The position numbers and the translations under genes are program-made. The notes under the pieces were generated by a model. That model was not told the origin of the DNA and searched no databases. It worked only from the letters and a program-made list of their open reading frames with translations. This document shows positions 49,517 through 62,018 of a DNA stretch of 64,000 bases, piece by piece. This DNA comes from an uncultured Eudoraea sp. Lineage in GTDB: Bacteria > Bacteroidota > Bacteroidia > Flavobacteriales > Flavobacteriaceae. Every line of letters begins with the position of its first letter. Within the stretch, counting starts at the first letter, position 1. The stretch covers positions 992,001 through 1,056,000 of the forward strand of contig NZ_CANLGX010000001.1 of the NCBI RefSeq assembly GCF_947490415.1, written 5' to 3'.

Positions 49517-51304
49517 ATGGAATACGGCTTTACAGATATTTTACAATTGATCGGCTCCCTGGGGTTATTTCTCTTTGGGATGAAAGTAATGAGCGATGCC
49601 TTGTTAAGGCTGGCAGGGAATAAAATGCGGTCTATTCTTGCAACCATGACTTCTAACCGGTTTTTAGGTATAGCAACCGGCTTTCTTATTACATCTGTAA
49701 TACAATCTTCCTCTGCAACAACACTTATGGTGGTAAGCTTTTCAAATGCATCTTTACTAACCTTGCCTGAAGCCATAAGTGTAATCATGGGTGCTAATAT
49801 AGGTACTACCATTACCGCATGGCTGATTACGCTTTTGGGATTTAAGGTGAGTATGAGCTCTATAGCCCTCCCTTTGGTTGGCTTTGGCTTTATATTTACG
49901 TTTTCAGAGAAAGAGAATACAAAAAATTGGGGAGGATTTATCATAGGATTTGCAATTCTGTTTATAGGATTACAATTTTTAAAAGATGCTATGCCCAATA
50001 TTGATGATAATCCGCAAATTCTTGAATTTCTCAAGCAGTACACTAATGCCGGGTTTTGGTCTGTGCTTCTTTTTTTATTAATTGGCACAATTCTCACCCT
50101 GATCATTCAGTCTTCCAGTGCTACTATGGCACTGACCTTAATAATGACAGCACAGGGCTGGATTCCATTTGAGTTAGCTGCCGCTATGGTATTGGGAGAG
50201 AATATTGGCACCACTATTACGGCCAATATTGCGGCCATTGTGGCCAATTTCCAGGCAAAAAGGACAGCAAGAGCCCATCTTATTTTTAATATTTTGGGTG
50301 TAATCTGGATGCTGGCTTTGTTTTATCCATTTTTAAGGATGATAAGTTGGACAGTGCAGGAATTGGGGTCTCCATCTCCTTTTGTAAGTGCCGCAGCTAT
50401 ACCAGTCGCTATTTCATTATTCCACACGGTTTTTAATATCCTGAATACATTCATTTTGGTTTGGTTTATTAAGCCCATCTCCCGATTAGTTGAAAAAATA
50501 GTACCTGAAGTTGTAGCCCCGGATATGGCAATAGAAGTACCCAAATATTTAGACAAGGAAATGTTAAAGTATCCGGAAACCGCAATTGCTTCCATAATAA
50601 AAGAAACCAAATATTTATATAAAAATGCCATTTTTGAAATTGTGGCTCATGCATTAAATATTCACCGGGAAGATATCATATCAGATATTAAACCGAAAAC
50701 TGTAGTCAAAAAATCGACAAAGGATTTTAAAACGGATGTTCGGGCATTGTATTTAAGAAAAGTAAAAACTATTTATGGGGAAATCATAAAGTTTGCAGTA
50801 CAAGCGCAAAGTAACCTTAAGTTAAATGATGACCAAAACAATCAAATAATGGAACTAAAAGTGGCTAATAGGAAAATGGTTGAAATAATTCGCAATGTCC
50901 TTGATTTGGGAAATAATGTTTCGAAATATTTAGCTTCTGATAATAAATATATTAAAAATGCCTATGATAAGTTTAGACAAAAAATAGTTAAGGTATTACG
51001 GGTTATTTATTTGTTCCGTACTGAAAAGGAAAAAGAACAACATCATCAAAAACTCATGTTACTAAGGCAACAAGCTAAGGAGAGTATACATAAGAGCAAT
51101 CTGGAAATTGACCGTTTAATTAGAAAAGACTTAATAACAACCGATATGGCTTCTTCTCTTGTGAATGACACTGACAACCTTAACAGTCTAATAAAAGAAC
51201 TTATCGACGTTGCCGACATACTTTATGGCCGTTCTAGCACAACTTTTGATGAAACAAAGGCTATGGATAAAAACGAGAAGGACATCTTAGTGCCAGCAAA
51301 GTAA
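49517..51304 (+). CDS. Na/Pi cotransporter with C-terminal PhoU-like domain (NptA family)
   Basis: 595 residues. The two inverted halves of the Na_Pi_cotrans family each carry the QSSSAT motif (SVIQSSSATTLMVVSF at about 57-72 and LIIQSSSATMALTL at about 195-208), each followed by GANIGTT/GENIGTT. Eight or more membrane helices end near 315; the rest (about 340-590) is a helical PhoU-like domain. It imports phosphate with sodium at the inner membrane. I see no convincing tandem 8-base repeat before it, unlike the neighbouring phosphate genes. Confidence 0.9.
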   Translation: MEYGFTDILQLIGSLGLFLFGMKVMSDALLRLAGNKMRSILATMTSNRFLGIATGFLITSVIQSSSATTLMVVSFSNASLLTLPEAISVIMGANIGTTITAWLITLLGFKVSMSSIALPLVGFGFIFTFSEKENTKNWGGFIIGFAILFIGLQFLKDAMPNIDDNPQILEFLKQYTNAGFWSVLLFLLIGTILTLIIQSSSATMALTLIMTAQGWIPFELAAAMVLGENIGTTITANIAAIVANFQAKRTARAHLIFNILGVIWMLALFYPFLRMISWTVQELGSPSPFVSAAAIPVAISLFHTVFNILNTFILVWFIKPISRLVEKIVPEVVAPDMAIEVPKYLDKEMLKYPETAIASIIKETKYLYKNAIFEIVAHALNIHREDIISDIKPKTVVKKSTKDFKTDVRALYLRKVKTIYGEIIKFAVQAQSNLKLNDDQNNQIMELKVANRKMVEIIRNVLDLGNNVSKYLASDNKYIKNAYDKFRQKIVKVLRVIYLFRTEKEKEQHHQKLMLLRQQAKESIHKSNLEIDRLIRKDLITTDMASSLVNDTDNLNSLIKELIDVADILYGRSSTTFDETKAMDKNEKDILVPAK

Positions 51305-51369: not shown

Positions 51370-53661
51370 CTAATCTGTTGTTCTTGCAAGATCAACACTG
51401 CGATCGTGCATATCATAATATAGTTCCAGTAAATTAATAGTCGCCGTCATCAAATCCTTCGTTTCTAACAGAAGTGAAAAATATAAGGTCGTGTTTTTTG
51501 GACTAGATTCTTCCGAACGGGTTCTTTGTACTTGTTTTTCAACTTTAAGAGAAACCATTTTAAATAATTCTTCCTTTTGTTGTAAAATCCTTCCAATTTC
51601 TTCAAAAGAACGATTATCAAACGCCTGTTTGGAACGGCCAAGAAGGGATTCCATTTCTTGATTTATTTCGGTAAGTTCTTTAACCTGATTATACTTTAAT
51701 TTTTTGTGATTATTGTTGACATGCTTATGGGTAATTTTTGTAATGTATTCAAGAGATTGTGCAATATCCGTTAAATAGCCCAAAATATTTATATAAAAAT
51801 TACTTGCCTCTATACTACTATCATCAAGATTTTTAATAAAGTAAAATAAATTGTCTCTTAAATCATCTATTTCATCCGATAATTTTACAACATTTTTCTT
51901 ATTCTTTTTAAGTGTATCCAGGTCTTGCTTCGCCAAACCGTCTATACTATTTCTATACAGTTTACTACTCCTTTTAAGTACTTTAGAAATATTATGAGCA
52001 CTTTCTTCTATTACACCCTGTATGGAAGTACTTTCTGATCTAATTAACATATCCTCGGCACGTATAGCCTTGGCTTTCCGGTTATAGGAAATGTAATTTC
52101 TTGCCAACAATAAAATAGCAACAAATAGCAATACCGCAATTGCAGCTCCTTTCCCGAAACTAATAATAGCTAAAATAATACCTGCAGCAAGGAATGCAAC
52201 AATTGCAGTTGCAAACCAACCACCAATCACATTCAATACACCGGCCACCCTATAAACGGCACTTTCGCTGCCCCAGGCACGATCAGCCAGTGAAGTTCCC
52301 ATAGCAACCATAAACGTAACATAGGTTGTAGATAAAGGTAATTTATAAGAGGTTGCAATTGAAATCAGTATACCAGCTACCATAAGATTTACAGCAGCTC
52401 TAACCATATCAAAAGCTGCATATTCATGTATTTTTCCTTTGGCCAGGGCAAGTGTAGGTTTTTTAAATTGCCTGTTAATTCTTTCAAGTAGGGAATTTGG
52501 CAATACCGTTTCAGTATATCTGGATGCTAAAATTGAAAGCCTTACTAAACCTCTAGACAAGTTATTTGGTTTAAAACGTTCTTTAGCATCTCCCTCTCTT
52601 GCCAAATTAATCTCAGTATCTGCTACATATCGCGCTTTTTTTGAAAACCATAATGTGGCTACCATAACCATACCTGAAATGAACAGTAATATTGTTGGTG
52701 TAGGCACTTTTGTGGCCAATACATCCATACTAAATTCTGTGGCGGCCACACCAGAAACTGTCCACGCCTCATAAGACTGATATGCTGCAATAGGGACACC
52801 AATAAAGTTTACAAGATCATTTCCTGCAAAGGCCAGAGCCAAGGCAAACGTACCTACCCCAATAATCAATTTATATATATTAGTTTTAGTAAGTTTTACC
52901 AATATATATGACAATAAAGACCAGAATACAAAACTGACCAGAACAATGGGTAATACCTGATTTTCCAAAAAGGTGCTAATGTTTACCCCTCCAATTAAAT
53001 CGTAACTTTCACCGGCATAAGGAGTTCCTTTAATGCCCTTCATAAATATAAAATAGGTGATTGCAGATAATGCCACACCACCAAAAAGAGCACCTACCCA
53101 CTTCGATTTTTTTTCAAAATCATATGACAATAAAATACGGGATATCCATTGTACAATAGCTCCTATTGAAAATGCTACCACTACAGACAGTAAAATTCCC
53201 ATGATTATCTGAAACGCCTTTGAAGTGTTTATATAATTCACTACTTCTGAGAAACTCCCACCATCGGCACCAATTTTAATTAAAGACATGGCTACTGCAG
53301 CACCCAATAATTCAAACACAATAGATACCGTTGTAGATGTGGGCATCCCAAGAGTATTAAAGAAATCCAATAACAGGATATCCGTAATCATTACGGCCAT
53401 GAAAATGAACATAATCTCATCAAAGTAAAATTCTCCCGGGTTGAAGATCCCTTTTCTGGCAACTTCCATCATCCCACTGGAAAAAATTGCCCCACAGGCA
53501 ATACCCAAACTGGCCACTATCATAATTGTTCTAAAAGATATTGCTTTAGAACCAACAGCAGAATTTAAAAAATTTACTGCGTCATTACTTACGCCTACTA
53601 CCAAATCTGCAATGGCAAGAGTAGCCAGTGCTATTAGCATTATAAAATAAATATTATCCAT
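51370..53661 (-). CDS. PiT-family phosphate transporter with C-terminal PhoU-like domain
   Basis: 763 residues, longer than a plain PiT protein. The PiT signature repeats are GVSNDAVNFLNSAVG near residue 23 and AFAGNDLVNFIGVPIAAYQ near 285. About ten membrane helices extend to about residue 525; the remainder (about 540-755) is a charged helical region like PhoU/DUF47. It is convergent with the Na/Pi cotransporter gene and lies 73 bases downstream of the porin gene on the same strand, probably one transcript from the porin's promoter. Confidence 0.9.
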   Translation of the reverse strand: MDNIYFIMLIALATLAIADLVVGVSNDAVNFLNSAVGSKAISFRTIMIVASLGIACGAIFSSGMMEVARKGIFNPGEFYFDEIMFIFMAVMITDILLLDFFNTLGMPTSTTVSIVFELLGAAVAMSLIKIGADGGSFSEVVNYINTSKAFQIIMGILLSVVVAFSIGAIVQWISRILLSYDFEKKSKWVGALFGGVALSAITYFIFMKGIKGTPYAGESYDLIGGVNISTFLENQVLPIVLVSFVFWSLLSYILVKLTKTNIYKLIIGVGTFALALAFAGNDLVNFIGVPIAAYQSYEAWTVSGVAATEFSMDVLATKVPTPTILLFISGMVMVATLWFSKKARYVADTEINLAREGDAKERFKPNNLSRGLVRLSILASRYTETVLPNSLLERINRQFKKPTLALAKGKIHEYAAFDMVRAAVNLMVAGILISIATSYKLPLSTTYVTFMVAMGTSLADRAWGSESAVYRVAGVLNVIGGWFATAIVAFLAAGIILAIISFGKGAAIAVLLFVAILLLARNYISYNRKAKAIRAEDMLIRSESTSIQGVIEESAHNISKVLKRSSKLYRNSIDGLAKQDLDTLKKNKKNVVKLSDEIDDLRDNLFYFIKNLDDSSIEASNFYINILGYLTDIAQSLEYITKITHKHVNNNHKKLKYNQVKELTEINQEMESLLGRSKQAFDNRSFEEIGRILQQKEELFKMVSLKVEKQVQRTRSEESSPKNTTLYFSLLLETKDLMTATINLLELYYDMHDRSVDLARTTD

Positions 53662-53734
53662 TATACAAAGAGGATTAATTTGTAAATATCTAAAGTATGC
53701 ATTTTTAATATATTACCTAAAGGTTATTTTTATG

Positions 53735-54943
53735 TCAAAAATGGAGATCCATTTGTAATCTGTATAGTAAAACGTCTGTTTCTCCCAGAATATCTAAAAA
53801 ACTGACATCCGTTTGTACTTTCAATTTATGACCTACTATAAATTTAGAAACACCAAATGTATATTGATCTGATTTGTTGTTACCTGTAATTTCCAGATCG
53901 GGGGTTACATTAGAATATCTTACAGCCAAAGCCCAATTACTTTTAAATACATACCCGGTTGCAAGGTTTAAACCAGTACCAACCCTAACAATATCTCCAG
54001 TCTCGGTGCCATCAGAATTTTTAGCTACAGGGTCATCGGCAGTCCTGTTTGCATATTCGCCCATAAACGAGAAACCTCTGTATTTGAACATGGCATCCAC
54101 AAAAAGTGTTTCTATTGTAGTTTCATAAAGACCTACATCATTGAACATATAATCACCCAGGTTACTTCGGGTTCTTACCGCATTAGAATTAATATCATAA
54201 GTAGCTGACAACATTAATTTAGGCTTTTCTTCCCTTTCAAGATCACTGCCAAAGTAATCACCTTTATTTTTGAATTTCCCAAAAGGCAAAAGTTCCAGAC
54301 GTCCGGTATATTGATGGCCCCCTAAATTTCCAAGAACCACATTCCTCCCTTCTCCCTGCGAAAATGCAATTTTCTCTCTTACCAAGAATTTATCTGTAAG
54401 ATTAAAATGATGTCTTAATTGTAACCCGATATCGCGATCTATATTATAGGCAGCGTTTAATATGGAACGATCCACTAATTGCATATTTCCAGAAGAAATA
54501 ACCCGCTCAATATTGCCAGGTAATTTTGTCTGCCCTGCCCATAAAACAAAATTTCCATAGAAATTCCACATGATTACAGCATCCATTATCATTCTCGGGG
54601 AATTTCGTGTAAACTCGGATTGCCCTGCCTGATCTCTGTTAGACAACCCTAATTCAATTTTATATTTCAGTCTGGGAGAAAGTACAAATCCATCGAATTT
54701 AAGACGAGCCCGACGAACAAGCATATTAGAAGCGGGATCTACTAAACCACCATCTGGTTCTTTTTCCCATGCAGCCGTGCCTAATAATTGCATACGCGCA
54801 GCAATCTTCATGCTCCAGGTGCTATCCTTTCCCATCAAATTAAATATTCCTTTGCCAAAGACTCCTGGTGAATTGGTTTCCTGTGAAATTACAGAAGAAA
54901 AAAAAGTTAAAATAAATGCCAGTGTTAGAAGCTTAGCCTTCAT
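53735..54943 (-). CDS. Phosphate-selective porin (OprO/OprP family)
   Basis: 402 residues with signal peptide (about 1-20, ending SSVISQ) and a beta-barrel of the OprO/OprP type: MQLLGTAAWE, RRARLKFDGFVLSPRLKYKI, SNRDQAGQSEF and the C-terminal strand ending in Phe (LLYRLQMDLHF). It would admit phosphate or polyphosphate through the outer membrane and works with the PiT transporter encoded just downstream. A PhoB-box-like array precedes it. Confidence 0.88.
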   Translation of the reverse strand: MKAKLLTLAFILTFFSSVISQETNSPGVFGKGIFNLMGKDSTWSMKIAARMQLLGTAAWEKEPDGGLVDPASNMLVRRARLKFDGFVLSPRLKYKIELGLSNRDQAGQSEFTRNSPRMIMDAVIMWNFYGNFVLWAGQTKLPGNIERVISSGNMQLVDRSILNAAYNIDRDIGLQLRHHFNLTDKFLVREKIAFSQGEGRNVVLGNLGGHQYTGRLELLPFGKFKNKGDYFGSDLEREEKPKLMLSATYDINSNAVRTRSNLGDYMFNDVGLYETTIETLFVDAMFKYRGFSFMGEYANRTADDPVAKNSDGTETGDIVRVGTGLNLATGYVFKSNWALAVRYSNVTPDLEITGNNKSDQYTFGVSKFIVGHKLKVQTDVSFLDILGETDVLLYRLQMDLHF

Positions 54944-54966
54944 GAGTTATTAGTTTTTGTCTGAGA

Positions 54967-55011
54967 CAAAGAACCAACATAGTTGTTAATACAACGTTAA
55001 CGCAACATTAA
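54967..55011 (-). promoter_or_regulatory. PhoB-box-like array and -7 element of the porin-PiT operon
   Basis: Read on the minus strand: TTAATGTT (55011-55004), TTAACGTT (55000-54993) and TTAACAAC (54989-54982), each 8 bases with 3-base spacers, an exact 11-base period. Seven bases later comes GTTCTTTG (54974-54967), a TAnnTTTG-like -7 element; the ATG is 23 bases further. Direct repeats on one DNA face are how PhoB/OmpR-type regulators bind. Confidence 0.65.
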
Positions 55012-55020
55012 TTTATAGAA

Positions 55021-55048
55021 CAAAAAAACTGCCTTGGCCAAAGGCAGT
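55021..55048 (-). terminator. Orphan minus-strand intrinsic terminator
   Basis: ACTGCCTT (55028-55035) pairs with AAGGCAGT (55041-55048), loop GGCCA; the A-run at 55022-55028 is a U-tract on the minus strand. No minus-strand gene lies directly upstream of it, so it either insulates the porin promoter from antisense transcription or ends an unannotated small RNA. Confidence 0.65.
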
Positions 55049-55236
55049 CATTAGAATTCATAAATGATAGTCGACAAAAACTAATATTCAATATGAAATT
55101 GCTAATAGTTGTGTTTAAACACAGCAACAAATCTCAAGAAAAGTTATGATGTATATGTAATGTAAAGATTAAATAATCATTAAAGTCAATTGAAAATGAA
55201 AGTATGTAAAATACTATAAATCATTACTTATCGTTT

Positions 55237-55294
55237 TTAATGTAAAATTAACGTTATGTAAAAGTTCATTTAAGGTTAAAAATATTTAACTTTA
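55237..55294 (+). promoter_or_regulatory. PhoB-box-like array and -7 element of the MORN-repeat gene
   Basis: Four 8-base half-sites at an exact 11-base period: TTAATGTA (55237), TTAACGTT (55248), TAAAAGTT (55259) and TTAAGGTT (55270). A TAACTTTA element (7 of 8 positions of TAnnTTTG) follows at 55287-55294, nine bases after the last half-site. The array points in the direction of the gene. Confidence 0.6.
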
Positions 55295-55325
55295 TACAAT
55301 TAATGAATTACAAAATAAACTGAAT

Positions 55326-55685
55326 ATGAAGAAAGCAGTCATATTAATAGTGTTGACTTTTGTCACAGTATTAGCCTATGGACAGGAAAACAAAGTACAG
55401 AAACTAAATAAAGAGACCAACTTAATAGAAGTTACGGACTATCATGATAATGGTATGATTAGCCAGGAAGGGACTTTTAATTTAAAAGGGCAATTACATG
55501 GTGAGTGGATTAGTTATGATGCTTTAGGAAATAAAATATCTCAGGGCAGTTATGAAAATGGATATAAGTCTGGCAAATGGTTTTTTTGGTCTAATAATAC
55601 AATGAAGGAGGTTGAATACAGTAAAAATGAAATTGCCAGTATTAACGGAGTAAAAAATTCCTCAAGGGTAGCCGACAATCATTAA
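55326..55685 (+). CDS. Secreted MORN-repeat (YwqK-like) protein
   Basis: 119 residues with signal peptide MKKAVILIVLTFVTVLAYGQ. The mature part has two or three MORN-variant repeats (YHDNGMISQEGTFNLKGQLHG, shortened here: GMISQEGTF, GNKISQGSYENGYKSGKW, MKEVEYSKNEI), the YwqK-like type. Such proteins are usually called antitoxin-like without evidence. No toxin gene is adjacent. The promoter array suggests it is a phosphate-starvation gene. A strong bidirectional terminator follows. Confidence 0.75.
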   Translation: MKKAVILIVLTFVTVLAYGQENKVQKLNKETNLIEVTDYHDNGMISQEGTFNLKGQLHGEWISYDALGNKISQGSYENGYKSGKWFFWSNNTMKEVEYSKNEIASINGVKNSSRVADNH

Positions 55686-55707
55686 TATTTTATGGTATTA
55701 ATCATAG

Positions 55708-55741
55708 ATAAAACATCCCGCCGATCGGCGGGATGTTTTAT
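55708..55741. terminator. Long perfect-palindrome bidirectional terminator
   Basis: Bases 55708-55741 form a perfect 34-base palindrome with a GC-rich centre (ATCCCGCCGA/TCGGCGGGAT) and A/T flanks. It separates the convergent MORN-repeat gene and the free-standing regulatory-like module. Confidence 0.85.
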
Positions 55742-55766
55742 TTTACAATACATTTCAATTTTTTTA

Positions 55767-56162
55767 TCAAGGACTTTTTTCAGAATTGGCAGCAATGTAT
55801 ACAGGCTCTTCTGATACGCTCTGCATACGGGCAATATCCTGAAGGCTTATTTTTTTGGCTTCGAGTTCATTATTGACCTGCGTAATCTTATTTTCCTCGA
55901 TTGATATTGGTATTTCTAAAGTCTCATATCCCAAATAACTGACTAATAAGGTGTAATTCCCGGGATCAATACCGGCTATTTCAAAATTTCCATGAAAATT
56001 AGTCTGGACACTTATAGGTGTATTTTTGATTTGTACATGGGCAAATAGCATGGGTTCGTTATTCATCTCTTTGTCGAGGATTGTACCCATAACAGAGCCC
56101 TGTTCCTGTGAAAACAAGAGTGCTGTAAACAATAAGGAAAAGACCAAAACTAAATATTTCAT
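55767..56162 (-). CDS. Free-standing secreted carboxypeptidase-regulatory-like module
   Basis: 131 residues from the ATG at 56160-56162; an earlier in-frame ATG at 56198 lies inside the promoter array and is rejected. Signal peptide MKYLVLVFSLLFTALLFSQ, then one CarboxypepD_reg-like domain (VMGTILDKEMNNEPMLFA, YTLLVSYLGYETLEIP) and a short tail. The domain is strikingly similar to the N-terminal extension of the TonB receptor at 57.6-60.5 kb (shared NNEP, IKNT, GNYTL/GEYTL, LGYETLEIP). It has no barrel, so it is not a truncated receptor in frame: its stop is natural and followed by a terminator. Likely periplasmic partner or decoy for the receptor. Confidence 0.72.
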   Translation of the reverse strand: MKYLVLVFSLLFTALLFSQEQGSVMGTILDKEMNNEPMLFAHVQIKNTPISVQTNFHGNFEIAGIDPGNYTLLVSYLGYETLEIPISIEENKITQVNNELEAKKISLQDIARMQSVSEEPVYIAANSEKSP

Positions 56163-56181
56163 TGACTTAATTTTTCTACTG

Positions 56182-56248
56182 CAAAAGAAAGACGTCAATG
56201 TAAAGCTAAGGTTACTTCTATATTAAAGTTTGGTAACAAAAAGGTTAT
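56182..56248 (-). promoter_or_regulatory. PhoB-box-like array and -7 element of the free-standing module gene
   Basis: Minus-strand half-sites at an exact 11-base period: ATAACCTT (56248), GTTACCAA (56237), TTAATATA (56226), GTAACCTT (56215) and TTTACATT (56204-56197). Seven bases later is TTCTTTTG (56189-56182). The ATG follows 19 bases further. Confidence 0.65.
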
Positions 56249-56369
56249 CAAAATTTAGGATAGCAGAAAAAATATTGAGAGAAACAGATCAATAGTAAGT
56301 TATATTCGTGGATCATCAAGACCACAAATTATTGCATTTTTTAAAAATGATCCCCAGTACTTTAAATAT

Positions 56370-56396
56370 AAAAAGCTCGGCATTGCCGAGCTTTTT
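56370..56396 (-). terminator. Terminator of the TonB receptor-lipoprotein operon
   Basis: AAAAAGCTCGGC (56370-56381) pairs with GCCGAGCTTTTT (56385-56396), loop ATT. A/T flanks allow use in both directions; it lies 26 bases after the lipoprotein stop on the minus strand. Confidence 0.8.
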
Positions 56397-56421
56397 AATC
56401 GAGTATATACTATTTTATAAA

Positions 56422-57612
56422 TTAATTGACCCCTACAGTCCAACCTGTTCCCCAGGCAGAAACATCTGTTCCGGTACCATTACCATCACCTGAAATAAAG
56501 TCTGCCTCTGTAAATGTATATCCGGTATCATTTTTTAGCTTGGTAGTGACATTGTTAAAAGTAACATCAACAACACCAAGATTACCATCTAAGACCCCCT
56601 GGCCTGTTGGATTACTTCCTGTATCACCATCAAGATCAAAACCTTCATCAAAATCATTAAGTACTATATTGGTGAAAATTCCCTGGGTACCCGCCCTAAG
56701 ACGTATAGCTTCACTGGCATCGTTAGCACCAACTACTGTTACATTAAATACATTTGGAGCGGAAAAATACCCACCGTCGTTGCTAAAGTCTGTATTATAG
56801 CCATCACATTCAAAGGCTTTATCATGTGACACACCGTGCTGTACATAAACATCTGTTAGTGTTCCGGTATAACCTTCAGTCCAGTCAATAGAATCATCTT
56901 CTGCATTGACAATAACTATATGACTCGCATTTACGGTTCCACCGAAAAACTCTATGCCGTCGTCAGATCCTTCATAAATCTCAACATAGTCTATGGTAGT
57001 GCCATTTCCAACCGCATATAAAGACAAGCCATTTAGTTCCGCATTTCCGTCAATAGCTCCACCGGCATATTCAATTCTTAGATATTGAATGTTACCAGAA
57101 TTATCTGTTGGAGTATTCCCCCCATAAGATAAACCTCCTACCTCTGAAGTTGCAGTATCTTCTGAACCATCTGCAGTAGAATTTATAGGTGCCTTCCCAC
57201 AAATAACAAGTCCACCCCAATCCCCGGAAGAAGGGCTGCCGGCGTTAGAGGTCATTATTATTGGGTTACTGGCTGTGCCTAACGCATTTATTTGAGCACC
57301 TTGTTGTATAGCTATATAGGCATTTACCCCAACTGGCTGTGCTTTAATAGTAATACCGGCAGGGATAGTCAAAGTAGTTCCATCTGCCATTAGAACCGGT
57401 CCGGTTATAACATAGTTAATTTCGGAATCCAGCACAAGATTTTCTGTATAGACACCACTCAAATTAACCGTGTTATCTCCAGGATCTGTGCCACCACCTG
57501 ATATGTTATTAATAACACTGTTATCATTTATAACAATATCCGGGGTATTGTCCTTCTCGCATGCAAATATTAATGCGGCGGTTATACCTAATACTAAAAA
57601 TTTGTTTTTCAT
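56422..57612 (-). CDS. Parallel beta-helix lipoprotein paired with a TonB receptor
   Basis: 396 residues. Lipobox ALIFAC (Cys18). After a Gly/Asp/Asn-rich linker (about 35-50) the chain has many short repeats of the kind INYVITGPVLMADGTTLTIPAG, here cut to ITGPVLMADGTTLTIPAG, NALGTASNPIIM and DDGIEFFGGTVNASHIVIVNAEDDSIDW, predicting a right-handed beta-helix with metal-binding Asp-rich turns. It is not SusD-like. It lies 20 bases after the TonB receptor gene in the same operon and should be its surface-exposed partner. Ligand unknown; the phosphate-type promoter suggests a phosphorus-containing substrate. Confidence 0.78.
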   Translation of the reverse strand: MKNKFLVLGITAALIFACEKDNTPDIVINDNSVINNISGGGTDPGDNTVNLSGVYTENLVLDSEINYVITGPVLMADGTTLTIPAGITIKAQPVGVNAYIAIQQGAQINALGTASNPIIMTSNAGSPSSGDWGGLVICGKAPINSTADGSEDTATSEVGGLSYGGNTPTDNSGNIQYLRIEYAGGAIDGNAELNGLSLYAVGNGTTIDYVEIYEGSDDGIEFFGGTVNASHIVIVNAEDDSIDWTEGYTGTLTDVYVQHGVSHDKAFECDGYNTDFSNDGGYFSAPNVFNVTVVGANDASEAIRLRAGTQGIFTNIVLNDFDEGFDLDGDTGSNPTGQGVLDGNLGVVDVTFNNVTTKLKNDTGYTFTEADFISGDGNGTGTDVSAWGTGWTVGVN

Positions 57613-57632
57613 TGTTTTAAGATTAAATAGAA

Positions 57633-60458
57633 TTAAAATTTATATTTGAGGGTTAGCCCAATGTTAACCCCAAGAGTATACTCTCTTATTATAACATCAC
57701 CTATCCCCGTATTTTCTCTGATTAAAGAAACTTCAGGATCCAGGAGATTCATTGCGGTAAGATTAGCTTCAAAGTGTTCGCCAATTTCGTTTTTCCAAAC
57801 AAAATTTAATGTAGGGACTGATTTTTCTACAATATTGCCCAAACTTCCGGCCCCTAAGGAAAAGATCCTATCGGAAAAATAAGAAAACACTACGGTGGCT
57901 TTAGGTTTATAATTACCAAACACCGGGCTAAAATTAAGATCGGTATTTATAATAAACGGAGACGCTCCTTCCAACTCATCAGAATCCCTGTCAAAAGTGG
58001 TTCCAAAGGTATTTTCGGATCCTGCCGGAATGTCTTTTAAATCTTGCTTGGTACTTGTATAAGCGGCATTGAGGCCAAAAGACAATACAGGGATATCATC
58101 GGTGTTAGAGATCAGATTTTTGCGAAATTCAAGTTCTACGCCGTAAATGTTTGCCTGATCTCCGGTCCTGAAATAGCGTTGCGTGCCTGTTGCGTCTGCT
58201 GCAACAACCCTGTTTACGGGATTTTTAATGGTTTTTGAGAAAGCTGCTAACGAGATAATTTCATCCCGCTCTAAAAACCACTCGTATTTTAAGTCAAAAT
58301 TGTATACATCCGAATAGGTTGGCCCCTGCCCATTCAATCCACCTAATAGATCCGGATTACCGCCTATTCTCTGAGTTACAGATTCGTAAACAAATGGAGC
58401 AACTTCTTTAAATTCCGGAAAAGATGCGGTTTTACTGAAGGCAAATCGCAAATTGGAATCATCATTTAAGGCATAACGGACATTCAAACTGGGTAAATAG
58501 ATGTTTTCATAAACATTTCGAAAACCAGGGTCATCCGGCCTGATGTTTATTACATCATATTCCACATTTTGTGAAAAAGATTCAACTCTGAAACCTGGGA
58601 CCAAGGACCATTTTTCACCCAGGTTTAATTCTGCTGAGGCGTATACTCCATGAATATCAAGATTTCCGGTATAGGTATTCTCTGGTAATCCCGGCCTGTT
58701 TTTATTACCTATTTTATCGTTAATAGGGTTGAGAACAATTAAATCATATAACCCTGATCCTTCAGGGATATTTATGTTTGAAACATTAAAAATAGAGTTA
58801 AAATTATTGACATCGGTTACAGGTGTATTGTCCCGGTCCACTATTTCATAGCCATATCTTATACTGCTAAACCTACGTTCTTTGGTTCTGCCGTTATATC
58901 CAAAATTTAATTTTACTTTCTCAGATAGTTTATACCCCAGATTAAGGTAACTATTTAGCTCATCATCTTTTATGCTTTGAAAGAACCTCTGATTGTCAAA
59001 AGGGATATTTGTGTAAAAAACAGGGTTTGTATTGTTGTCGCCATCTAAGGCGAATTGATAATTTTCAAGAGTGATTCGTTTTCTATCGGGTTCATCTGAA
59101 AATACATTGTTATATCCTATACCCCAGCCCAGCGTAATTTTATCATCAAAATTGTGAATACCGGTAAGTTGATTTACAAAAATCATGTCCTGATTAAACT
59201 GGGCATTCATAACGTAAAACCCCTCATCGGTATTTAATATTGCATCCCTGTTTGTGCCAAGACCATTTATTCCGTAGTAACCAACTGCATCAACAGAATT
59301 ATTGATAAATAATGAACTTAATTTAACAACATGATTAGTATTTATTCTATAACCAATGTTCGCCAATGCGGTAGTTGTGGTATTATAGGAATATTCCCGA
59401 ACATTAGGGAAGTCGGTTTTAAGAACATTGGTATAATCACGTGCAGGACCTTCCAATAATTCATAACCATTTTTAAAAGAAGTTGCTCCAAAAAGGCTCA
59501 ATCGGGACTCTTTTCCAAAAGAAAAGGAATAACCTCCTTCAATTGCTCCGGAAATATTTATTGGATCCCATGCGGCTTGTGGATCTACCCCATGGGCCAG
59601 GACTATGGCGAATGGGTCATTGCTATAACGATTATAGAATCCGTAATTGCTGGGCCCTTCACTCCGGACAAAATTTTCACCGGCTACATTTGAATTTAAA
59701 CCACTACCCAATGAAACTTCTAAATAACCATTGCCGGTGTAATCTTTAGAATCTATATTAACGTTCCCTGCTGCAAAATCTCCATAAAATGCGGAGCCAT
59801 AAGCTTTGCTAACTGATACATTCTCTATAATACTTGACCCAAAGATATCAAGATCAATATTCTTTTTATTAACGTCATTAGAAGGTAATGAAAGCCCGTT
59901 CATAGTGGTGTTTTGGTATCTGTCACCAAGACCTCTTACATAAACATTACTGGATCCTTGCTGCTTGGATATCCCTGAAATTTGAGATACGGCTGCCGCG
60001 GCATTATCAATTCCCTTAAGTTTCAGCGCTTCTGCACTTATGGCCTCCTGAATGACAAGCGCCCTTTTTTGTTCGAGCAACAATGCTATTTCTGAATCTT
60101 TACTAGTTGATACGGTAATTACTACCTCATCCAATGAAACACTACCTGCCCCAAGTGCCGTATTAATCTGAGTTACTTTCCCGCTCTCTACAACCACATT
60201 AGGAATTTCCAGCGTTTCATAACCTAAAAAGCTAAAAATCAATGTATACTCACCGGGTGGCACCCCTGTAATTTCATACAGGCCATCGAAGTCTGAAGTG
60301 GTTCCTTTAGATGTATTTTTTATAAGAACATTGGCAAACGCAAGAGGCTCATTATTTACCTCTTTATCTGTAAGCTTACCTATTATACTTCCAGCTTCCT
60401 GGGAATGACCTATAAAGTGGGTAAAAATAAGTAGTGCAATAAAAACTTGTTTCATCAA
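57633..60458 (-). CDS. TonB-dependent receptor with N-terminal regulatory-like domain
   Basis: 941 residues: signal peptide (about 1-19), carboxypeptidase-regulatory-like domain (about 22-110, LGYETLEIP), a TonB-box-like segment VSLDEVVITV, plug (about 130-260, with VYVRGLGDRYQNTTMNG) and a 22-strand barrel ending in an aromatic C-terminus (LTLKYKF). It takes up a large or scarce substrate across the outer membrane with energy from TonB. The substrate is not shown by sequence; the neighbouring phosphate genes and its PhoB-box-like promoter point to a phosphorus source. The beta-helix lipoprotein gene follows in the operon. Confidence 0.9.
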   Translation of the reverse strand: MMKQVFIALLIFTHFIGHSQEAGSIIGKLTDKEVNNEPLAFANVLIKNTSKGTTSDFDGLYEITGVPPGEYTLIFSFLGYETLEIPNVVVESGKVTQINTALGAGSVSLDEVVITVSTSKDSEIALLLEQKRALVIQEAISAEALKLKGIDNAAAAVSQISGISKQQGSSNVYVRGLGDRYQNTTMNGLSLPSNDVNKKNIDLDIFGSSIIENVSVSKAYGSAFYGDFAAGNVNIDSKDYTGNGYLEVSLGSGLNSNVAGENFVRSEGPSNYGFYNRYSNDPFAIVLAHGVDPQAAWDPINISGAIEGGYSFSFGKESRLSLFGATSFKNGYELLEGPARDYTNVLKTDFPNVREYSYNTTTTALANIGYRINTNHVVKLSSLFINNSVDAVGYYGINGLGTNRDAILNTDEGFYVMNAQFNQDMIFVNQLTGIHNFDDKITLGWGIGYNNVFSDEPDRKRITLENYQFALDGDNNTNPVFYTNIPFDNQRFFQSIKDDELNSYLNLGYKLSEKVKLNFGYNGRTKERRFSSIRYGYEIVDRDNTPVTDVNNFNSIFNVSNINIPEGSGLYDLIVLNPINDKIGNKNRPGLPENTYTGNLDIHGVYASAELNLGEKWSLVPGFRVESFSQNVEYDVINIRPDDPGFRNVYENIYLPSLNVRYALNDDSNLRFAFSKTASFPEFKEVAPFVYESVTQRIGGNPDLLGGLNGQGPTYSDVYNFDLKYEWFLERDEIISLAAFSKTIKNPVNRVVAADATGTQRYFRTGDQANIYGVELEFRKNLISNTDDIPVLSFGLNAAYTSTKQDLKDIPAGSENTFGTTFDRDSDELEGASPFIINTDLNFSPVFGNYKPKATVVFSYFSDRIFSLGAGSLGNIVEKSVPTLNFVWKNEIGEHFEANLTAMNLLDPEVSLIRENTGIGDVIIREYTLGVNIGLTLKYKF

Positions 60459-60479
60459 TTTGATTTACGTTTTCAGCCG

Positions 60480-60576
60480 CAAAGAACGCTATGAGTTGTA
60501 AAAGTCCTGTTACCTGCAGGTTAAACATTTATTTTATTAAGGTTACCATAAGGTTAGCAGATTAAGGAAACGTTAA
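60480..60576 (-). promoter_or_regulatory. Multi-site PhoB-box-like array and -7 element of the TonB receptor operon
   Basis: Minus-strand half-sites nearest the gene: TTAACCTG (60524), GTAACAGG (60513) and TTTACAAC (60502-60495) at an 11-base period, then seven bases, then GTTCTTTG (60487-60480). Further upstream, in phase with these, GTAACCTT (60546) and CTAACCTT (60557); then another pair TTAATCTG (60565) and TTAACGTT (60576), also 11 apart. The architecture near the -7 matches the porin promoter exactly. Confidence 0.65.
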
Positions 60577-60674
60577 GGTGTATTGTTCCTGTTTATTAAT
60601 TCACTGAAAAATGGATTATTTAAGTATTTATTCACCTTTAAAAAAATGTATCTTGCCAGCTTAATCTTAGACAT

Positions 60675-62018
60675 ATGAACTGGGAACAACTCCTTTCTTT
60701 AAGACGATTCGGGGACACACATAAAAGACTTCGAAATGAGCAAAACGAGACCCGCTTAGGATTTGAAGTTGATTATGACAGGGTCATCTTTTCGGCGGCT
60801 TTCAGGAGTCTGCAAGACAAAACTCAGGTAATTCCGCTTTCTAAAACGGATTTCGTTCATACCCGTTTAACCCATAGCCTGGAAGTTTCTGTGGTTGGGC
60901 GCAGCCTGGGAAGGATTGCTGGTGAAAAGCTACTAAAAAAGCACCCATTTTTAAAAGAAACCCATGGGTATAAATTTGGAGATTTCGGCGCCATAGTAGC
61001 TGCAGCCGCTCTGGCCCATGATATAGGCAATCCACCATTTGGTCATAGCGGAGAAAAGGCGATTGGGGAGTTCTTTAAACACAGGGAAGGTAAAAAATAC
61101 CAATCGGTTTTATCTCAAAAAGAGTATCAGGACATTATTGATTTTGAAGGCAATGCAAATGGGTTTAAGTTACTTACAGAATCACGCGAGGGAGTATCAG
61201 GCGGACTCCGGCTAAGCTATGCCACGTTGGGAGCCTTTATGAAATATCCGAAGGAATCTCTTCCGAAGAAGCCAACAACTCATATAGCTGCTAAAAAATT
61301 TGGATTTTTCCAGTCAGAAAAGGAATTCTTTAAAGAAGTAGCTGAAGAATTGGGTCTTATCTGCACAAGTGCAGGGGAGGATATAGCCTATTCAAGGCAC
61401 CCTCTGACTTATTTGGTGGAAGCAGCTGATGATATCTGTTATACTATTATTGATTTTGAAGATGGAATAAACCTGGGATTGATCTCAGAAGAATACGCTT
61501 TGGAGTACTTGATTAAACTGGTTAAAGACACCATAAATACAAAAAAGTACAATTCATTAACTATTATGGCCGACAGGCTCAGCTATCTAAGGGCATTAGC
61601 AATTAATACGCTCATTACGGATGCGGTATCAGTTTTTCTTGAAAATGAAGAAGCGATCATAAAAGGTGAATTTGAGGTCTCACTTCTGGATCGTAGCCGC
61701 TATAAGGCCCAAATTGAGGACATTATTCAATTAAGTGTTAACAAAATATATCGCTCTGCGGGAGTTATAGAAAAGGAAATTGCCGGATATAAGATTATCT
61801 CTGATATTTTGGAAGTTTATACAAAGGCCCTGGTTGGTCAAAAAGAAGGTAAGCCCACGAACTATGATAAGCTTTTAATAGAAACCTTGCCGCATGCCTA
61901 TAGAAATACAGAAGGTTCAACGTATTCTGTTTTGTTAAATTCCTGTTGTTTTGTAGCTAGTCTATCAGACAGTGCAGCTGTTCATATACATAACAAAATA
62001 AGCGGAAAACAACTTTAA
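60675..62018 (+). CDS. dgt: dNTP triphosphohydrolase (dGTPase)
   Basis: 447 residues. The HD-domain metal site is complete: His67 (FVHTRLTHSLEVS), His115-Asp116 (AALAHDIGNPPFGHSGE) and an Asp in VEAADDICYTIIDFED near residue 255. FRSLQDKTQV near the N-terminus is the family's nucleotide-binding segment. It cleaves dGTP and perhaps other dNTPs to the nucleoside plus triphosphate, and so opposes ribonucleotide reductase. Its stop overlaps the convergent DUF3078 gene stop by four bases (TTAA). Confidence 0.92.
   Translation: MNWEQLLSLRRFGDTHKRLRNEQNETRLGFEVDYDRVIFSAAFRSLQDKTQVIPLSKTDFVHTRLTHSLEVSVVGRSLGRIAGEKLLKKHPFLKETHGYKFGDFGAIVAAAALAHDIGNPPFGHSGEKAIGEFFKHREGKKYQSVLSQKEYQDIIDFEGNANGFKLLTESREGVSGGLRLSYATLGAFMKYPKESLPKKPTTHIAAKKFGFFQSEKEFFKEVAEELGLICTSAGEDIAYSRHPLTYLVEAADDICYTIIDFEDGINLGLISEEYALEYLIKLVKDTINTKKYNSLTIMADRLSYLRALAINTLITDAVSVFLENEEAIIKGEFEVSLLDRSRYKAQIEDIIQLSVNKIYRSAGVIEKEIAGYKIISDILEVYTKALVGQKEGKPTNYDKLLIETLPHAYRNTEGSTYSVLLNSCCFVASLSDSAAVHIHNKISGKQL

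Follow-up and report, generated by a model that had tools for sequence, protein, structure and literature searches.

How are the phosphate uptake genes of an uncultured Eudoraea sp. controlled, and why does an inverted copy of a porin leader lie just upstream of the porin gene? We examined both questions in a window of 64,000 nucleotides (C1:992001-1056000 within the 3.89-Mb genome, labeled G000; other labels denote relatives' genomes, G, and loci, L) – a stretch of DNA for which a first-pass annotation had reported promoters built from tandem 8-base half-sites. Our analysis suggests that these arrays are a flavobacterial Pho box and that one of them belongs to a candidate small RNA gene encoded between a MORN-repeat gene and the porin gene. 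We consider it probable that Pho-box arrays drive this locus together with a co-induced small RNA that would limit porin translation. Feature coordinates are collected in Table 1.

We observed the same promoter architecture, on the minus strand, before the porin gene, a gene for a free-standing CarboxypepD_reg-like module, and a TonB-dependent receptor gene. With distances counted between the thymine of TAA and the first thymine of TTTG, the porin promoter carries half-sites TTAATGTT, TTAACGTT, and TTAACAAC at 40, 29, and 18 bases before its TTTG (54970-54967). The module promoter has ATAACCTT, GTTACCAA, TTAATATA, GTAACCTT, and TTTACATT at 62, 51, 40, 29, and 18 before TTTG (56185-56182). At the same five distances before its own TTTG (60483-60480), the TonB promoter has GTAACCTT, a vacant slot, TTAACCTG, GTAACAGG, and TTTACAAC, with further half-sites farther out, the outermost of them out of register. 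Direct reading bears out two earlier statements: tandem half-sites stand at an 11-base period before the porin, module, TonB, and MORN genes, and in the first three promoters exactly 7 bases separate the last half-site from an 8-base -7 element. The MORN array can be read on both strands; the minus reading, which faces away from MORN, is the stronger, and by eye the array lies outside the 18-base TTTG register.

Arrays of three half-sites at an 11-base period were scored with a half-site matrix built from relatives. At a score of at least 13.5, window positions 53601-60700 contain seven arrays (in six places, the MORN array being counted on both strands), versus five across 20 stretches elsewhere in the genome that total 400,000 bases and two in the other 52,300 bases of the window. 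At a score of at least 20, the counts are three in the locus and zero in both the genome stretches and the rest of the window. Each of the other periods from 8 to 14 gives at most one array in the locus at 13.5 or above, and the tandem half-sites are commoner than chance. Two of the arrays had not been listed before: one in the gap between the porin and the PiT-type transporter gene, where it overlaps the last four bases of the porin gene, and one at 55183-55154 (minus strand, 13.5) before an unannotated RNA gene. The sodium/phosphate (Na/Pi) cotransporter gene of the window has no array (p 0.66).

We also trained a 47-column sequence model on 21 porin promoters of relatives, with the window excluded, and scored 150 of 3708 candidates in the genome. 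Among the matches listed, the window porin promoter ranks first (38.3 bits, expectation value (E) 5e-9), the module promoter third (16.2 bits, E 0.046), and the TonB promoter 16th – a low rank that reflects weak nearest half-sites and the vacant slot – and 4 of the 20 matches listed fall in this locus. The second-best match (G000:C9:77540-77584, locus L082; 16.3 bits) lies before a pair of open reading frames resembling an extracytoplasmic function (ECF) sigma factor and an anti-sigma protein.

Relatives' loci were gathered through the PiT gene (75 loci, with Eudoraea and other Flavobacteriaceae as the nearest named records), and many of them keep, wholly or partly, the gene order dgt – TonB – lipoprotein – module – MORN – porin – PiT – Na/Pi. 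Promoters passed at p≤0.02 by approximately dinucleotide-preserving shuffling, and those with less than 120 bases of upstream DNA were dropped. At all 21 orthologous loci the module promoter passed, with a mean score of 18.7 at period 11 versus at most 1.3 at the other periods from 8 to 14. Upstream of MORN, 29 of 32 regions passed in the minus reading and 16 of 32 in the plus reading, the minus mean being 19.1 at period 11 versus at most 5.4; these regions span 250 bases and may take in the array of the small RNA. The Na/Pi regions passed in 11 of 27 cases (period-11 mean 8.5 versus at most 0.5), and the PiT regions in 20 of 81. Of 48 regions upstream of dgt, scored in the reading that faces away from this gene, 30 passed, though this row is not fully independent: the neighbor past dgt varies by locus (TonB, lipoprotein, module, or porin), and some such porins trained the matrix. 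Arrays were not equally common before unrelated genes, as the module and minus-strand MORN counts contrast with those of two control promoter sets – DUF3078, 0 of 16, and DUF6503, 2 of 27 (together 2/43; 1/16 and 3/27 on the other strand).

For the porin itself, the row of 48 promoters is not independent because 21 of the 48 trained the matrix. In 20 non-training loci from other genera, 19 porin promoters passed at p≤0.02, and 18 of the 20 have their TTTG at a distance of 18. Some of these loci may share a species or genus with training loci; L138 (which repeats the L034 site), L140 (without a porin), and L141 (incomplete) were left out, and 110 bases were scored, with the L135 array lying beyond them. 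Among relatives' pstS promoters, 6 of 15 passed (period-11 mean 7.6 versus at most 1.9); weak solute-binding relatives passed in 0 of 13 cases, the two groups together covering 28 of 30 loci. Arrays are thus commoner before phosphate uptake genes, pstS included, than before control genes. Four genomes have a porin gene immediately upstream of pstS and in the same orientation (G016:C12, G040:C22, G041:C1, G046:C127), and in G046 the small RNA also precedes the porin.

One candidate reading of the MORN-side array was that it serves only a minus-strand transcript toward the porin. We rejected this, as in a marine clade whose MORN gene sits behind PiT the array is kept in the same reading, so it most likely serves MORN itself. 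In this clade (L055, L057, L063, L076, and similar loci) the array beside MORN faces, by eye, the end of an apparent ribonucleotide reductase gene.

In the porin upstream regions, the leader sequence recurs in inverted form about 125 bases before the leader itself, and a terminator follows this copy. By pattern, the antisense seed occurs in the window and in 25 of 44 relatives' loci that have a porin start. The predicted RNA fold consists of a 5′ hairpin, a stem closing a small hairpin with the antisense segment in its loop, and a terminator hairpin with a T run; its z-score is -3.03 in the window and ranges from -2.23 to -4.75 across six folded sequences. RNAalifold on a first alignment yielded a weak structure, as some terminators were misaligned by one base, and was set aside for a covariance model of 18 sequences, window included, whose structure was named from the folds and to which other sequences were aligned by the model. 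Across 46 distinct sequences, 19 of 22 pairs are changed on both sides, the 5′ hairpin among the elements with double changes. Double-change cells number 143, versus 35.5 in shuffles (above all 500) and at most 35 in slid versions of the structure, and 94.2% of cells are paired versus 79.2% when shuffled. Within the 18 training sequences alone, just two pairs vary on both sides. Rfam 15 returned no family at its gathering score over 55022-55127; the sole match listed at E≤5 is RNAI, at 25.3 bits versus 47 required (E 0.19). We propose a candidate, previously undescribed small RNA gene that is presumably transcribed from this interval.

The covariance model matches 36 of 119 genomes (the Eudoraea genome included), all in Flavobacteriaceae. 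Of 41 matches, 36 (in 34 genomes) stand directly before a porin on the same strand, and 29 of the 30 loci returned have the porin downstream. Porin relatives occur in 54 of the 119 genomes, and the small RNA is matched in 35 of these versus 1 of the 65 genomes without a porin – a comparison that assumes the same 119 genomes in both searches and in which the stricter filters of the RNA search lose weak matches. A Lutibacter record has a weak match (L041:34-140, 35.2 bits) just before a porin relative. Matches at G023:C1:707498-707585 and in G056 (L140) have no recognized porin nearby; they may be true relatives with another target, or the porin may be too distant for the search.

Transcription in Bacteroidota starts a few bases past the TTTG of the -7 element, so the leader is the probable 5′ end of the porin message: probably its first ~20 bases, which the small RNA would cover nearly to the ATG. 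In 26 loci the small RNA is complementary to the porin leader over 11-19 bases without a mismatch, and among the 54 open reading frame starts in the window, the porin start has the longest match to the RNA (14 bases; next 10). The 13-mer GACAAAAACTAAT, the first 13 leader letters, occurs exactly only in the leader and the RNA gene genome-wide, though this count means little alone because a reversed control word also occurs twice. In 41 of 50 RNA-leader pairs, RNA and leader both carry the consensus core; in 3 (the near-identical L034 and L036, and L066) the two have changed in matching fashion; 5 more retain G-U pairing, and in the last, L127, an apparent inserted base in the leader breaks the duplex. 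The core is thus paired in 49 of 50, and 5 of its 6 one-sided changes keep G-U pairing. For the RNAs of L034, L036, and L066, the match extends over 12-16 bases with the own leader and over about 8-9 with consensus leaders. Flanking positions pair better with the own leader (4.06 of 6) than with shuffled leaders (3.58 of 6; 0 of 2000 shuffles as good), in a core-and-flank count from which L024, with an extra A in its leader, was dropped. Free duplex energies over the whole RNA were rejected as a measure – they yield long gapped duplexes, with the own leader first in 3 of 26 – and longest perfect runs and the core-and-flank count were used instead.

The candidate small RNA has a promoter of the same type. 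Its register is that of the porin, 51/40/29/18, and among relatives its array reads roughly TTAATAATTA-cTTAATATT-TTAC. At p≤0.02, 39 of 46 small RNA promoters pass, with a period-11 mean of 13.9 versus at most 2.0. TTTG or TTTA stands 40 bases past the second half-site in 33 of 42; L016, L024, L032, and L129 did not fit the pattern. The half-sites of these promoters are often without C, and the last one is degenerate in the window, so a fair guess is that the small RNA is induced more weakly or later than the porin.

Read in the sequence itself are the arrays, their register and conservation, the RNA structure with its covariation, and the covarying antisense match. We infer that PhoB is the binder, that the RNA is transcribed, that it represses the porin instead of activating it, and in which direction phosphate acts. 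Under phosphate shortage, a PhoB-type response regulator would bind TTAACATT-type 8-mers head to tail, one per 11 bases, and would recruit RNA polymerase to the TTTG of a -7 element fixed relative to the last repeat. Genes under such arrays would be the porin-PiT operon, the module gene, those for the TonB receptor and the lipoprotein behind it, and MORN; a promoter of the same type would drive the ~100-nucleotide RNA encoded between MORN and porin. The RNA loop TATTAGTTTTTGTC would then pair with the porin leader GACAAAAACTAATA beside the start codon and block translation without Hfq. With two Pho-type promoters in one register, for the porin and for an RNA able to block it, PhoB would turn on both the porin and its repressor. 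This amounts to a predicted incoherent feed-forward loop, which would allow fast porin synthesis at first shortage and then cap it.

Our evidence supports the arrays as a flavobacterial Pho box, TTAACATT, to which PhoB would bind. The proposal of a flavobacterial Pho regulon thus gains support, and its 'own consensus' is a matter of degree because TTAACATT resembles the cyanobacterial CTTAACCT described in part of PMC1906773. The genome encodes a 228-amino acid OmpR-type regulator followed by a 353-amino acid kinase (G000:C1:323327), and this PhoBR-like pair is present in a genome without a PstS or PhoX match. Since regulator and kinase best match PhoB and PnpS/PhoR but fall below the cut-offs, we regard a PhoB-type protein as the likely, rather than established, binder.

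Several observations weigh against this account. On the regulator side, the best NCBIfam match of the PhoB candidate, PhoB, reaches 215.8 bits against a cut-off of 296.2, the second, a Bacteroides PhoB model, reaches 212.4 against 270, the kinase is also below cut-off for its nearest models, and the candidate's own promoter has no array. PstS (PF12849) gave 0 matches in the Eudoraea genome, with 13 of 14 control genomes positive, and PhoX gave no match, with 2 of 14 positive. On the side of the arrays, TonB regions pass in 13 of 34 cases (period-11 mean 4.8 versus at most 2.1), with TonB not being the first gene in the marine clade, and lipoprotein regions pass in 3 of 21, with a mean that peaks at period 12 (5.3) rather than 11 (3.1). 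Nine of the 15 pstS promoters fall short of p≤0.02. Of the 11 PhoX and PhoX-like promoters scored (from a set of 13 of 17 loci, 2 without a start), 10 fail and 1 passes, with starts only roughly set; because gene starts could not be placed well, these promoters are uninformative. Scored on the opposite strand, 17 of 48 porin and 4 of 21 module promoters pass, and since sites score on the opposite strand too, array direction is sometimes ambiguous. The remaining matches listed by the 47-column model are weak, often within open reading frames, or near unrelated genes.

Other observations weigh against the small RNA. The antisense segment was not found by pattern in 19 of 44 relatives' loci, mostly in the marine clade, and 19 of 54 porin genomes have no small RNA match (on reading, G021 has the RNA; G041 and G069 do not). 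Five matches lie elsewhere than before a porin: those in G023 and G056, a weak second one each in G035 and G049, and, in G009, an echo of the RNA itself on the reverse strand. The covariation alignment was fitted to the structure, and its shuffles leave relatedness in. In the window, the slot at 18 of the small RNA promoter is degenerate.

The main rival to the RNA mechanism is a device acting in cis. Transcripts reading through from upstream would fold the antisense segment onto the porin leader, and the porin would be translated only from its own Pho promoter. Both segments do lie on one strand about 125 bases apart, so that read-through would form an intramolecular duplex. Between them, however, lie the terminator, with covariation in 8 of 8 pairs, and a second Pho-type promoter, and the RNA has its own same-register promoter and a 5′ hairpin with double changes. 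We regard the cis device as unlikely.

Somewhat less likely still is that the arrays are bound by another OmpR-family regulator (e.g., an RprY-like protein encoded at G000:C3:619039), or by a pair of regulators, answering a different envelope or nutrient signal. Repeats at 11 bases are common across the OmpR family, two matches in this genome span nearly the whole PhoB model, and the PhoB candidate is under the curated cut-offs. This alternative sits poorly with a locus whose genes are for phosphate uptake and with the arrays in 6 of 15 relatives' pstS promoters. It also sits poorly with the strong rise of a TonB receptor and lipoprotein beside phoBR in Flavobacterium johnsoniae on phosphate depletion, as tabulated in part of PMC8115612.

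We give about the same low weight to the possibility that the small RNA pairs with the leader but raises porin output, by protecting the 5′ end or opening the start region, or that it has more targets. Pairing that spans the probable 5′ end of the message could protect it, and in the search for other targets, genome-wide matches were limited to exact 13-mers and start regions were compared within the window. The leader is A-rich and ends beside the ATG, however, and a duplex there would be expected to block initiation.

A further alternative treats the inverted GACAAAAACTAAT copies as DNA operators of a promoter-looping repressor. The copies are inverted, close together, and the only two exact ones in the genome. 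Departures from the core are either doubly changed (L034, L036, L066) or keep G-U pairing (5 of 50), which argues against an operator because such pairing matters for an RNA and not for a protein site, and one copy sits within a covarying RNA fold. We consider an operator pair very improbable. Chance repeats in AT-rich intergenic DNA, where TTAA-rich words are common and, at a loose score of at least 10, other periods also give some arrays in the locus (period 9: 4), are contradicted by the enrichment, period, register, and conservation controls and can be set aside with near certainty.

The positions of the promoters, the candidate RNA, and the neighboring genes follow in Table 1. The lipoprotein-like gene has no Pfam or NCBIfam match, and the N-terminus of the module is, judged by eye, signal-peptide-like. 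A second, distant OprP-like porin (31% identity) is encoded at G000:C4:71575-72627.

Table 1. Features of the Eudoraea sp. window discussed in the text (positions are those of the window).
Feature	Position	Strand	Basis or remark
Candidate small RNA gene, ~100 nucleotides	55022..55127	-	Fold, covariation, 36/119 genomes; predicted start
Intrinsic terminator of the candidate small RNA	55022..55048	-	Hairpin 55048-55028 and T run; 8/8 pairs doubly changed in relatives
Antisense segment TATTAGTTTTTGTC of the candidate small RNA	55073..55086	-	Complement to porin leader
Porin leader GACAAAAACTAATA, predicted antisense target	54948..54961	-	14-base perfect complement; ends 4 bases before ATG
Pho-type promoter of the candidate small RNA	55128..55183	-	Half-sites at 51, 40, and (weak) 29 before TTTG (55131-55128); score 13.5, p 0.010
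Porin promoter, three half-sites at 11-base period and -7 element	54967..55012	-	Top genome match of relatives-only model; register
Module promoter array and -7 element	56182..56248	-	Third in genome by relatives-only model; 21/21 loci
TonB receptor promoter array blocks and -7 element	60480..60576	-	Direct reading; scores 11.5-13.6
Array upstream of MORN	55237..55279	both readable	20.2 minus versus 16.9 plus
Array in porin-PiT gap, before PiT	53709..53738	-	Score 16.0; 9.0 bits with 47-column model
Phosphate-selective porin O/P family gene (OprO/P-type)	53735..54943	-	PF07396, E 1.9e-8
PiT-type phosphate transporter gene	51370..53661	-	PF01384, E 4e-30
Na/phosphate cotransporter gene	49517..51304	+	PF02690, E 4.4e-59
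MORN-repeat protein gene	55326..55685	+	PF07661, E 7e-7, slightly below cut-off
Free-standing CarboxypepD_reg-like module gene	55767..56162	-	PF13715, E 6.4e-20
TonB-dependent receptor gene	57633..60452	-	PF00593, PF07715, PF13715
Lipoprotein-like gene behind TonB receptor	56422..57612	-	Adjoins TonB in many relatives

If this account is right, a fixed-register Pho box would make the phosphate regulon predictable across marine flavobacteria. The small RNA might also bear on F. johnsoniae, where OprP reads as not raised beside strongly raised neighbors in the tabulated part of PMC8115612, on the assumption that the RNA is present there. We lean toward a widely kept new Flavobacteriaceae RNA family that would act independently of Hfq from directly upstream of its target phosphate porin, share a Pho-box promoter with it, pair with the whole short leader, and rise together with the porin under shortage – and, with it, toward the first defined Pho-box consensus in fixed register to a Bacteroidota -7 element. 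Such an RNA would be a concrete case of Hfq-free porin control linked to nutrient stress, with natural compensatory variants at hand. Bacteroidota have unusual promoter elements and, to our knowledge, mostly lack Hfq, so their transcription activation and small-RNA regulation are poorly mapped.

Among known systems, the enterobacterial small RNAs MicF, MicC, and OmrA repress porins by pairing, through Hfq, with the start region of porin messages, and they are encoded elsewhere in the genome. The RNA described here is alike in its predicted pairing with the start region of an outer-membrane porin. It differs in being encoded directly upstream of its target, on the same strand and with the target's promoter type, in a genome without an Hfq match (5 of 14 control genomes were positive). 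We found neither a flavobacterial Pho-box consensus nor such a small RNA in a literature search that left out most subscription papers and all bioRxiv preprints. For marine bacteria, one lipid-remodeling study predicts that plcP gene clusters contain Pho boxes (PMC4796936).

Within the phylum, PhoB of Bacteroides fragilis has been found to bind upstream of pstC, at its promoter, in vitro; it drives pst as well as a phosphate permease, and the main text of that report contains neither 'consensus' nor 'binding site' (PMC3547664). The phoBR operon of F. johnsoniae resembles our locus in gene content, its listed members including a TonB receptor, a lipoprotein, and the porin OprP (PMC8115612) – the same set as here, the proteins being likened by name and not by sequence. 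Its table rows, which we take as log2 change on inorganic phosphate depletion, give 8.02 for the receptor, 9.91 for the lipoprotein, and -1.3 with 0.24533 for OprP. Unlike that operon, the locus in our window does not include phoBR, and the main text of the F. johnsoniae report does not contain 'promoter', 'motif', or 'pho box'.

The promoters themselves can be compared with two described Pho boxes. The E. coli PhoB box, with 8-base direct repeats, a 3-base linker, and a fixed distance before the -10 element (PMC1906773, in part), is alike in repeat length, linker, and fixed spacing to the -10 equivalent. It is unlike in its CTGTCAT-type repeats (PMC4415409, in part) and sigma-70 -10 element, where our promoters have TTTG. 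In the cyanobacterial Pho box, to which SphR binds, an 8-base repeat built around TTAA, CTTAACCT, occurs three or more times in tandem (PMC1906773). The repeats here, nTAACnTT or TTAACATT, have 3-base linkers as well. They belong to another phylum and are followed, 18 bases on, by a Bacteroidota-type TTTG -7 element, and the relatives' consensus has ACATT where the cyanobacterial one has ACCT.

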